Shown here one piece after another: positions 2,417-60,377 of a DNA stretch of 64,000 nucleotides. Position numbers and translations under genes: made by a program. How positions within the stretch are numbered: position 1 is the stretch's first letter; each line of letters opens with the position of its first letter. This DNA comes from an uncultured Alkaliphilus sp. GTDB lineage: Bacteria; Bacillota; Clostridia; Peptostreptococcales; Natronincolaceae. Where the stretch lies: NCBI GenBank assembly GCA_938074565.1, contig CALJEQ010000006.1, positions 1 to 64,000 of the forward strand, in the 5' to 3' direction. The notes beneath the pieces were generated by a model. That model was not told the origin of the DNA and did not search any database. It saw only the letters and a program-made list of their open reading frames with translations.

Positions 2417-5400
2417 TTAATTCCTCCTTATATCAGAAGATAAAATACTGGACTTTAAACGTTTTAGCAACTCTAAATCATTTTTTAGATAGCTGGATGG
2501 AGTCAAATTAAGATCATAGTTAACGTTCTCCCCATGATCAGGACATCGGGGGTATAAGAAGACCTCATTTAATAGGGAAAGATTAAGTCTACGTTCGTTA
2601 ATTTTTTGATACTCCAACTCTAAGACTTTTAGTATATCTATGGCATTTGTAATAGAAACCTCTGATAATTTATAAATTACTTCATTGGCTACACCGTTAA
2701 TAAAGTGAGGCGAGGTATAAGGTAATATTAAGTTAATGGAAGGTAATAAATTTTTCTCCGGATAAATTCCCCTCCATAGGGTATCTCCACCAATAAAGGG
2801 GTAAAGTAGGTTTTCGTTAAACCATAATCTAAGCTTAGGGATAAAATAAGCACTATCTACTTCACGATTTTGAATTTCCATTAATTCTTTACCCCTGCCA
2901 GAGAGAATTCCAACAATTATTTTTTTTACACCAACATTTTGAGCTTTTAATAGGGGGTCTAATGCCTTAATGCGATAGCCTTTATTTAAAATATCATCTA
3001 CCAAAATAACTGATCGATTAAATGAACCAATCATCTTAATTTGATTAACTAAATCTAGATAATAAGGATATGGACCAATGGAGAATCCCTTCATGTCTGG
3101 TCTAAATAGTTTTTCTGTGTGTAATGACTTGGTAACAGTGTTGGGAACAATGGATCGATTAAGGATATTACCAAAAGGGACACACATGAAATCCCCTAAA
3201 TTTCTTGGATTTGAAGGAATTGGAGACACACCATTAACCTCACATATTTTTCTTACCAGTGTCTCGTCAATAATACTTCGGTCAAAAGACAGTACAAGGT
3301 TACCTGGATACAACTCCGTTAATGCAGCTTGAAGTTTTTTTCTTGTGCTGGAGATGACTTCTTTTACATAATAATTACTTCTAAAGGGTTCTTTAATGAT
3401 GGTTTCTAAGTCCAAATTCAATGTACAGGGGTTAGTCATATCTACTGCTAATATTGGATTATTATCAGTAGATAGAGGTAACAATTGAAACCCATGGAGC
3501 TGTATCATCTCTAACAATTCTTCAGAGGATTCATTATCAATGGAATTTCTAAAAATGCCATAACCAAAGTCGTTTCTTAAAGAATAGGTTAAGGTTTCTG
3601 TAAGGATAATTTGATATAGTGAATTTAAGTTTGCATAATCTTTTGCAAAAAATCCATCATAAGAAATGATTCTTCCCCTATAGTTTTTCCTTATTATTTC
3701 TGTAATTTGACTGTTTTTAAATTCTTGATAAATCATGTCTGACGGTATCCAATGGAAGGCTGAATAAGCTAAAAGTTCACCTTTATTATGGATGTCTTTA
3801 ATAATAATTAACTTACCATCGGGTTGTTGGCAAATCCATCTAAGTTTTGCCACAGCGTCTTCATCTTTTCCATGAAAGGTAGTGGCTATTTCTTGGAATA
3901 AAGATTCATCATTCCCCTCGAATACATCAATACTTATCGATATGGTTTGAGTAATTGACTTATACAGAGGTTCTTTGCGATAAAGGTTATTTTTATAAAT
4001 ATATTTTTGTGCTAGAGGGTCTATTAATCTTGAAATATCCCTGTTTTCATCAATATAGTTTCTAATTTGGGTTGAACTAATTTCCTCATATTGAGGAGGT
4101 AAATTTAGTTTAATGACAGGTGCTAAAATTTGTTTAATTGCATTTTCTAGTAAATCATTATAAGTCTGTTGATTCTCCACTTCCTTACGTTCAAAAATGA
4201 TGTGGGGAAAGTGATGTATTGATGAGTCTTGTGGAGCTAATTGGTAGGCAGATGCATTAATAATTACATCACTGCCGACAACTATATAGACTTCATCGGT
4301 GGAAACATTATCTTTTAATTTCTTCAAATCCATAGGGTTAGCAATGTTTGTAGGGAAATCTTCTGGATAAATATAAATATTCATTTCATCTGCAATGGAT
4401 TGACTAATAATATTTTTTCTAATTAAATTTGGTTGTGTTCGTTTGGACCAAGAAAATTCATCAACAGCTAAATAAACCTCAAATCCATTATCCCTTATAG
4501 CCCTTGATATTTCCTTATGCCCAAGGGTAAAGGGGTCGAAGGTACCAGGGAAGAAGGCTACCTTTGAAGGCGAATTAATTTTAATTTCACCATAAGAAAA
4601 AACATAGTTTGATATAAAGCGATAAATATGATTTAAGCCTGATGAATTGGTGAGGAACAGTAGTTGGGTTTCTTCGCATTCGGATAACAAAGTAAGGATC
4701 TTTTTTCCAATTGATTCAAAAATAGAATTCTTTTCCATTAAGGATAGTTTATTAGAACCAAATAATTGCTTACCAATAACACTAAAGGAAATCTGTCTAA
4801 TTTGTAGGTCATCATGAACTAAGCCATTCAATAAAATGCCTAAAAGTTTTAGTCTTCGCTTGTTGTAAATATATTCATTTTCTTGATATTGTTTTTTGTA
4901 TAAAGAATAATTGGAAACTATGATTCCCATTGTCTTTAATAAAAGAGATTTTATTTGATTGCTGGCTTGACGAATTTTTTCTTCTAAGTCTTCAATAATT
5001 TCATCCAACTCAAAAGGTTGTAGATAAAGAAGAATTTCTCCTAAATAATTAGGAATATATTTAGTGAATTGATAGCCTTCAATTTCTAAAGCTCTTAAAA
5101 GTTCAATAGCAATATCATTTCGTTGTTCTATTGGAAGATGGGGAAAAAGTTTTATTAAAGCTTTACCCGCACCATTACGAACGCTTTCAATGGCACTGAC
5201 CTTTAATAAGTTACAAAAATGCATTGCAGTATAAAGTCCACTGGTTTTTCCACTTTCAAGATAGTATTCTGTTAGCATTTTTACTTGTACTTTTTTGGTT
5301 ACCCAACTGGTGGCAGTTTTTAAATTACTTAAGAAAATATCAGAAAGTTTCTCCATATCTTTTTGGCATAGGTTGTTGTAATGGTTTACTCTTTTTTCAT

Positions 5401-58456: not shown

Positions 58457-58668
58457 AAGTATAAATTAACTATAAACATATTTAAAAAGTCTAAAGTCAA
58501 AAAATTCATAATTATACTTAAAATAATTGAAAAGTAGTAAAATATCATGTATTATTAAAAATATAACATAAAATACAACAAGATAGTTTACAAAAACTAA
58601 TATCTTATATAAAAAAATAGTTAACATAGGGGTAATAATTTTTGTTTTGTTGGGAAGGGGATAGTGCA

Positions 58669-59997
58669 ATGCAAACATTAACTACAGGAGAAAAAATTAG
58701 GCAGTTACGAAAAGCCATAGGACTAAAACAAGAAGATATTACTAATGAGGAACTTTCTAAAAGTTTAATTAGTCTAATCGAAAAAAATAAAAGAAACTTA
58801 ACTAAAAATACCGCTAACATAATTGCTGATAGCCTAAATAAATACTATAAACAAGTTGGTAAGGAAATTACACCAGAATATTTATTAGAAACGGAAGAAG
58901 ATCAAATAAAGAAAACTATACAAAAAGACCTTGAATATCTACAGAAAATTATTAATTCTGATGATGTAGAAGAAAAGTTAGTACATACTGCTTTTGAAAA
59001 AGTAATGGGTCTAGTTACCCAATGGGGGTTGAAAGAAGAACTAGTAGAATTGAAAATTTTAAGAGGTAATTTTTATTATAATAACTATCAATACAATGAA
59101 GCCCTTAAAGATTTTTTTGAGGTATTAAATCATTCAATACAAGCAACAGATTATGGACAAATAGCAAGAATGTATAATGCATTAGGTTCTGTATATCAAA
59201 TGCAGATGATGACAGATACAGCAATAGTACATTTTGTTCAGGCATATGACACTGCTGATATTAATAACACCACTAATAAAGATAAAGTAAAAGTCCACTC
59301 GGTTTTTAATCAAATACTCTGTTATTATAATATTACTAGGTATGACTTAGCCCTTAATCATATAAATAAATTTAAAGAATTAAAATGGGAAGACCCCTTA
59401 TATAAAGTATTTAACAACCAAGTAATACTAATGGAAGCTAATACCTATAGAGATTTAAAAAACTTTGATAAGGCAATAAAATTATATGATAGATTAAAGC
59501 ACGAAGAAGAGGAATTAGACAAAGAGACATTATTTTTACTTTATGAGAACTATTCAGTTTTCTTTAGACAACAGGGGAAAATGGATAAAGCTTTAGATTA
59601 TATTAATAAAGCCTTTACTATGAAGGATCATGTAGATGTTAATTACATACCGGCATTATATCTATATCAAGCTAAATGTTATCATTTGTTGGAGGATAAT
59701 AAGAAAGTAGTTGCACTATTGGAACAGGGTCTTAGACTAGCTGAACTGGTTTCAAAGAATTATATTGTTATTGATTTGCATTTTGCCTTTGCAGAGATTT
59801 ACATAGAATTAAAGGACTTTTCCAGTGCATTATGTCATTTACAAGAGGCAGAGAAGGTTATTGAAGAAAAAGATATGAATTCTAAAAAGCATGATTTATA
59901 TAGTTTCTATTGTGATGTCTATTGGGGTATGGGTGATGAGATTAAAGCAAAAACATATCTTAATAAAATAAGAAAGAGTTATTTAAAGGACATTTAA
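58669..59997 (+). CDS. XRE-family regulator with TPR repeats (RRNPP-like)
   Basis: The ATG at 58669 follows AAGGGGAT; a TTG 27 bases upstream is before that RBS. The 442-residue protein has an N-terminal helix-turn-helix (about 5-60: TGEKIRQLRKAIGLKQEDIT, then SLISLIEKNKRNLT) and a C-terminal array of helical TPR repeats (about 120-435, e.g. ARMYNALGSVYQMQ, ALDYINKAF). This is the architecture of peptide-sensing RRNPP regulators (PlcR, Rap, NprR, Rgg). It is followed 39 bases later by a gene for a 52-residue exported peptide, the typical place for a cognate signal. Confidence 0.82.
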   Translation: MQTLTTGEKIRQLRKAIGLKQEDITNEELSKSLISLIEKNKRNLTKNTANIIADSLNKYYKQVGKEITPEYLLETEEDQIKKTIQKDLEYLQKIINSDDVEEKLVHTAFEKVMGLVTQWGLKEELVELKILRGNFYYNNYQYNEALKDFFEVLNHSIQATDYGQIARMYNALGSVYQMQMMTDTAIVHFVQAYDTADINNTTNKDKVKVHSVFNQILCYYNITRYDLALNHINKFKELKWEDPLYKVFNNQVILMEANTYRDLKNFDKAIKLYDRLKHEEEELDKETLFLLYENYSVFFRQQGKMDKALDYINKAFTMKDHVDVNYIPALYLYQAKCYHLLEDNKKVVALLEQGLRLAELVSKNYIVIDLHFAFAEIYIELKDFSSALCHLQEAEKVIEEKDMNSKKHDLYSFYCDVYWGMGDEIKAKTYLNKIRKSYLKDI

Positions 59998-60036
59998 GTA
60001 AAAGTATTAATTAAAATAGAGTTGGAGGGTTACATT

Positions 60037-60195
60037 ATGAAAACGAGAAAAATTTTATTGGCGACTTTAGTGATTTCTACAGTACTAGTAGGGTGCATTG
60101 GTGGTCTTTGGTTAAGTTTTAATGAAAAGAACTGTGAATGTATTACCATAGGAATGTTTACCACTGATGAAAACCCAAATCCTAAAATATTTTAA
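60037..60195 (+). CDS. Candidate secreted signalling propeptide
   Basis: This 52-codon gene has RBS GGAGGG eight bases before ATG and sits between the XRE-TPR gene and a strong terminator, so it is cotranscribed with the regulator. The product has a basic start (MKTRK), a hydrophobic segment (6-26) and a short polar tail ending MFTTDENPNPKIF. LVGC at residues 17-20 could serve as a lipobox or as part of an export signal. Size, layout and position match RRNPP propeptides, whose mature signal comes from the C-terminus. A tiny lipoprotein of other function is the alternative. Confidence 0.65.
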   Translation: MKTRKILLATLVISTVLVGCIGGLWLSFNEKNCECITIGMFTTDENPNPKIF

Positions 60196-60212
60196 TTAAG
60201 TTTTCTAAACAT

Positions 60213-60264
60213 CTATATACAAAAAACCCACTTCTAATGATTGAAGGGGGTTTTTTGTATATAG
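60213..60264 (+). terminator. Terminator of the regulator-peptide operon
   Basis: CTATATACAAAAAACCC and its exact complement GGGTTTTTTGTATATAG form a 17-pair stem with inner CTTC/GAAG pairing. Confidence 0.85.
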
Positions 60265-60377
60265 ATTAAGTTATATTGTTAAAATTAGCAATACATAATA
60301 ATTATAATAGAAAAAAATTTTTAGTATTCTAAAATTTGTAGAAAGATGATAGGATAGAAGTAGTAAGGAGGCATAAG

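Follow-up and report, generated by a model that had tools for sequence, protein, structure and literature searches.

The window analysed here is a 64,000-nt stretch of contig C6 in a 3.68-Mb genome congeneric with Alkaliphilus transvaalensis ATCC 700919, and hence of an Alkaliphilus species. In the window, a regulator gene and a small gene form a two-gene unit with the following features:

58514..58559, plus strand: predicted promoter of the pair (−35 box TTGAAA at 58527-58532, 17-nt spacer, −10 box TATTAT at 58550-58555)
58669..59997 including the stop codon (codons 58669-59994), plus strand: receptor gene, 442 aa (direct reading, Pfam, paralogues and AlphaFold)
60023..60027, plus strand: ribosome-binding site GGAGG of the propeptide gene (direct reading)
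60037..60195 including the stop codon (codons 60037-60192), plus strand: propeptide gene, 52 aa (homologous small genes lie behind paralogous receptors)
60172..60192, plus strand: predicted signal NPNPKIF, the C-terminal heptapeptide, a [DEN]-P-x-P-x-x-x pattern right before the stop codon, with its mature ends inferred
60211..60266, plus strand: intrinsic terminator closing the unit (inverted repeat, 23 predicted pairs)

The two genes are direct neighbours, and the order given by an earlier sequence-only reading (a regulator, a gap of 39 nt holding the GGAGG site, and a 52-codon gene whose product ends in DENPNPKIF) was confirmed by the sequence. The terminator that it had placed at the end of the unit was likewise recovered, as a hairpin of −30.9 kcal mol−1 (z = −7.8) that none of 200 shuffled sequences equalled. 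Downstream of the pair lie acpS, a lipoprotein gene, alr and a MazEF-like pair (alr and MazEF being named from reading the translations). A search against Rfam returned no match.

The receptor starts with an XRE-type helix-turn-helix (HTH) at approximately residues 1-72, matched weakly by HTH_19 (E = 1e-4, below the Pfam cut-off), and continues with nine helical TPR pairs over residues 76-434, which Pfam assigns to PF13424 (E = 3.1e-17). Its AlphaFold model (pLDDT 90.3) consists of the HTH plus the nine helical pairs, and the top structural match of this model is apo NprR (Z = 28.9 over 344 residues; VIA-align). As unrelated TPR proteins reached Z values of about 25 in the structural search, the TPR fold alone is not diagnostic; a profile built from 30 receptors of the family also matched NprR, in one unbroken run of 225 residues (E = 4e-10). 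Asparagines recur on the A helices of these receptors (N214 in 28 of 30, N258 in 24, N294 in 22 and N170 in 17). Peptide-backbone-anchoring asparagines are found on the concave face of TPR receptors, for example Asn227 of RapF and Asn208 of ComR (PMC3601992, PMC5131891), and by analogy the recurring residues are as expected of such anchors, a likeness that implies no one-to-one match with a known one. When the receptor and the propeptide were modelled by AlphaFold as one read-through chain, the peptide tail was disordered (pLDDT < 50) and undocked.

The small protein is laid out as a basic start, a hydrophobic segment, a linker and a C-terminal signal region. Its length and that of the receptor fall within the ranges by which RRNPP pairs are recognized (10-100 aa for propeptides, ~250-500 aa for receptors), and the TPRs and the adjacency of the genes also agree with those criteria (PMC10075063), a putative Sec leader being suggested by the basic start plus the hydrophobic segment.

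The genome holds 18 further receptor paralogues of substantial length, at 34-59% identity to the window receptor. An HTH is present in 17 of the 19 receptors, the window's included (two of the 17 have an in-frame stop), and is absent from L022 and L024 (L and C labels denote collected loci and contigs). Thirteen of the 19, one of them HTH-less, have a small gene (49-58 codons, with a Sec-like leader) no more than ~50 nt downstream; no such propeptide gene lies behind the six other paralogues, nor behind roughly half of the A. transvaalensis ones. A propeptide profile retrieved 15 strong copies from the genome (E from 7e-11 to 3e-21, the next match being only 4e-4), among which 14 lie behind a paralogous receptor. 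The remaining one is an orphan on contig C58 (L094:1489-1635, minus strand), ending in HDPKPELG, with no adjoining receptor. At L017 (2308-2726), two tandem propeptide genes, with the ends DPAPVGM and DPAPKVD, follow a single receptor.

Among relatives, six pairs were found in A. transvaalensis and two in the MAG M1-B18 of another genus, and A. peptidifermentans has a 26-codon version of the propeptide that ends in GEPDPIPE; a profile search of 17 other genomes of the family gave no propeptide match at E 1e-5. Relatives in the Clostridiaceae retrieved by profile search are tandem receptors without a peptide, and in viral, phage and plasmid collections the only relatives were RstA-like proteins along with distant TPR or HTH proteins. 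Nearly all of the propeptides combine a basic start with a segment of strong hydrophobicity (Kyte-Doolittle 2.0-2.75 over 15 residues), a feature that speaks for an exported window peptide. The genome also encodes four oligopeptide-binding proteins.

Small genes behind homologous regulators, to which the sequence-only reading had pointed as informative, proved to have conserved leaders (MKKxK plus a hydrophobic stretch), variable linkers and a fixed pattern over the last seven residues. This pattern, [D/E/N]-P-x-P-x-x-x ending at the stop codon, was examined at 24 loci from four species and is intact at 22, the short A. peptidifermentans version among them; the other two have a single proline replaced. 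Apart from that short version, all 23 propeptides have D, E or N at −7, and one each has lost the proline at −6 (S in L009) or at −4 (A in L028, whose cognate receptor has an in-frame stop), whereas positions −5, −3, −2 and −1 are variable (entropy of 0.26 bits at each proline and 0.97 at −7 versus 2.7-3.0 at −5 and −3 to −1). As a control for chance, 5525 distinct mechanical ORFs of 20-80 aa were taken from all loci collected up to then; 25 of them end in [DEN]PxPxxx, comprising 22 family propeptides, two ORFs downstream of a receptor gene (one divergent, one shortened) and a single ORF that looks like chance. Given this single fixed C-terminal motif, the signal is probably the C-terminal heptapeptide, predicted from the sequence to be NPNPKIF in the window, perhaps preceded by E or DE.

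Two other explanations of the small gene were weighed. The sequence-only reading had noticed an LVGC lipobox and raised the idea of a lipoprotein, either remaining in the membrane or releasing its signal from the leader as enterococcal sex pheromones do. The LVGC is real (residues 17-20) and fits a lipobox in the window copy, yet none of the 22 other homologous propeptides has one, and the conservation that is fixed in position lies at the C-terminus and not in the leader. A sex pheromone precursor of the lipoprotein type, with a conserved lipobox and the signal in the leader, was accordingly rejected as a candidate, at one lipobox in 23 homologues; being confined to the window copy, the lipobox leaves the lipoprotein idea unsupported and, in our view, very improbable. 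Alternatively, a small hydrophobic protein adjoining an XRE regulator might be a membrane toxin or a bacteriocin-like peptide that the XRE-TPR protein regulates or neutralizes as antitoxin, and the receptor does match defence-type control proteins, though mostly through its HTH portion. However, the hydrophobic part and the linker vary, while [DEN]PxP keeps its spacing to the C-terminus; moreover, family searches gave no convincing match for the small protein, several receptors lack a peptide and at least one peptide lacks an adjoining receptor. A toxin is thus extremely unlikely, and a signal propeptide remains our preferred identity for the small gene.

In a tree of the receptors, the expansion is lineage specific, and the window receptor groups with that of L009 and next with the A. 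transvaalensis pairs. At L009, a repeat-like CCCTTCGGGAATTGAAA, possibly the edge of a CRISPR array, was seen 3′ of the pair (~3300-3350). Between the recent paralogues L018 and L021, the HTH (75 codons) has 2 amino-acid-changing and 19 silent codon differences, versus 106 and 67 in the TPRs (371 codons); as read from these codons, the HTH is under purifying selection and the TPRs are diverging. In Mantel tests, TPR distances correlated with those of the leader (r = 0.82) and of the last 12 residues (r = 0.36, P = 0.001), which is the expectation from joint duplication and is no proof of recognition. In the young pairs L016/L017 and L018/L021, the A helices of TPR 3-6 differ more than the B helices, but nothing is claimed from this: no enrichment was found when six peptide-bearing pairs were pooled (0.338 versus 0.324, P = 0.70), and a weak enrichment appeared in orphan receptor pairs (P = 0.02).

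The promoter of the pair matches the consensus at 10 of 12 positions. Promoter-like sites are frequent by chance (17 found versus 15.2 expected), so the real evidence for a promoter is the alignment of 30 upstream regions, whose information content is 17.8, versus 12.9-13.0 for shuffles. In this alignment, a common promoter lies ~100-115 nt before the receptor start codons, and in many of the regions a dyad, TTWAC-N17-GTWAA, is centred on the −35 box. With TTG in its middle, the dyad has 10 exact copies in the 3.68 Mb, eight of them at paralogue receptor promoters, one upstream of an apparent mnmE and one not evidently at a promoter; the reversed pattern occurs four times. As the pattern was derived from these same promoters, only its rarity elsewhere is new information. 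Allowing two mismatches, an operator search gave no excess over chance (116 sites versus 146 in the reversed control). The dyad is common to receptors whose HTHs are 92-99% identical, and its position over the −35 box at eight paralogue promoters, together with its rarity elsewhere, suggests auto-regulation and, among receptors with such near-identical HTHs, putative cross-regulation. Of the two half-sites, the window promoter fits the right one alone (GTAAA), and it may therefore have a different operator.

TPR receptors also occur in two other contexts on contig C5. Directly behind spo0A lies an HTH-less TPR receptor with a propeptide ending in HDPKPVIH (L024:1324-2613; C5:207823-209112). 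At the spo0A locus of A. transvaalensis (L140:2754-3473), the TPR gene is shortened and a small ORF with the end HDPIPEPM comes after it, and in the other genomes of the family that were checked spo0A has no such TPR or propeptide neighbour. At ~110-140 kb, C5 carries an integrated conjugative element with an integrase, TcpC, and coupling and VirB4-like ATPases. This element encodes a divergent TPR receptor outside the main family (L137:1297-2740; C5:111300-112743; profile E = 5e-13), with a propeptide one base behind it that ends in HTDNPNPTHV, the same signal motif.

The transfer operon of the element further contains, between the coupling-ATPase gene and tcpC and immediately before the latter, a leaderless 11-codon ORF with a strong ribosome site, MKKQDPEPVVH (L235:1255-1290; C5:126254-126289). 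A second leaderless ORF, of 17 codons and again with a strong ribosome site, is MDYKNIVFKQDPDPVVH (L236:845-898; C18:845-898). Over QDPxPVVH (the last nine codons including the stop), the two differ at 5 of 27 bases, all in third codon positions, which looks like coding conservation, as judged from two copies in one genome; no micro-ORF of this type was found in viral contigs. With two leaderless micro-ORFs in the genome, the motif may also exist in an intracellular form, and the window genes might then be a true receptor-peptide pair whose peptide acts inside the producer, with neither export nor re-import. For the pair itself this is improbable, given the basic start and the strongly hydrophobic segment of nearly all propeptides, and an exported peptide is the reading that we retain.

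By fold and layout, the pair is of RRNPP type (nine-TPR NprR/Rap/Qss clan), and we regard the family as a new subfamily that has a signal motif of its own. In the RRNPPA structural tree, clan B holds the nine-TPR QssR, NprR and Rap (PMC12700828); the window receptor, placed by its TPRs and fold, has the nine non-degenerate TPRs of that clan, in which an HTH is present or lost. NprR-NprX of the Bacillus cereus group is alike in its HTH plus nine TPR pairs, in the propeptide gene directly downstream and in a signal of heptapeptide size. It differs in sequence (~12% identity in the structural alignment) and in signal, SKPDIVG in NprX versus [DEN]PxPxxx in the window family. Qsr-Qsp (QssR-QssP) of solventogenic Clostridium, compared here by published description, likewise comprises XRE-TPR regulators with their own downstream propeptide genes, several per genome (PMC7376267, PMC7206700), and its active peptide QspB (QspB7), AEPTWGW, shares an acidic-Pro step; however, the conserved residues near the end of Qsp peptides are L, P (−5) and W (−1) (PMC7376267), whereas the window peptide lacks W, carries its prolines at −6 and −4, and has F as its last residue. 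Relatives from other families of the order have propeptides with GEDPHPWS or AEPRPWS, which recall QspB7. Related receptors with another propeptide type (AEPGVWS, EDPHPWS, AEPRPWS) were seen at L051:2346-2468, L052:1121-1243, L159 and L161 and are a possible link to the clostridial Qsp peptides.

The nearest characterized relative by sequence is RstA of Clostridioides difficile (23.5%, E = 2e-11), a repressor of its own promoter that acts at an imperfect dyad (PMC6414698). Unlike the window receptor, RstA is an orphan without an adjoining propeptide and is single copy in the RstA-like genomes searched, where the propeptide profile A2 found no DPxP propeptide. AloR-AloP of Paenibacillus polymyxa resembles the family in its many paralogous pairs per genome, with AloP numbered to 16, and in reported cross-regulation (PMC7425212), but belongs to another clan (degenerate nine-TPR; PMC12700828) and has other signals, for example SHGRGG.

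From the gene layout, the homology, the fixed motif, the conserved HTHs with divergent TPRs and the dyad, all at the level of sequence, the two genes are most probably an RRNPP-type peptide quorum-sensing unit (probability about 0.9). The earlier proposal of an RRNPP-type receptor plus an exported peptide with the signal at its C-terminus is thus supported by 13 pairs in the same genome and nine in three relatives. Its wording as an 'undescribed clostridial signalling cassette' holds in part: the motif and the subfamily appear undescribed in the literature searched, where no paper joining Alkaliphilus with RRNPP was found and where a large RRNPP survey took in complete genomes only (PMC10075063), but clostridial RRNPP pairs are known (qss; PMC7376267), and as every predicted cell-to-cell signal closes with one fixed pattern, we place the pair in a new branch of an already known family of signalling systems and not in a kind of its own.

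As a mechanism, we infer that the receptor and propeptide genes would be co-transcribed, that the propeptide would leave the cell via Sec and that extracellular cleavage would free the C-terminal heptapeptide, approximately NPNPKIF. Re-imported by an oligopeptide permease, the heptapeptide would bind in the concave groove that the TPRs of the receptor form and would alter DNA binding by the HTH. The window pair would be one of the 13 that arose in the genome by lineage-specific duplication, with signals that differ in the four variable residues of [DEN]PxPxxx, and at least part of the family probably controls its own and each other's promoters via the common dyad over the −35 box.

It is possible, though doubtful, that the pairs form one communication code, [DEN]PxPxxx, with many receptors to read it; acting on shared operators through HTHs that are nearly identical, these receptors would bring numerous signals together at the same promoters. 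Under this tentative scheme the conjugative element would participate with its divergent pair and with its leaderless micro-ORF, which could imitate or block host signals within the cell, and the HTH-less receptor beside spo0A could provide a link to sporulation.

At the level of the genus, the family comprises some 20 receptor-signal pairs whose signals obey a strict and simple pattern, so that the specificity and evolution of receptors and signals become directly testable with cheap synthetic heptapeptides. The copy on the conjugative element and the leaderless micro-genes raise the question of whether mobile elements listen to or imitate the signals of their host. Finally, as the receptors are distantly related to RstA, whose ligand is unknown, and one of them lies beside spo0A, the family may help to explain how cell density is coupled to sporulation in Clostridia.
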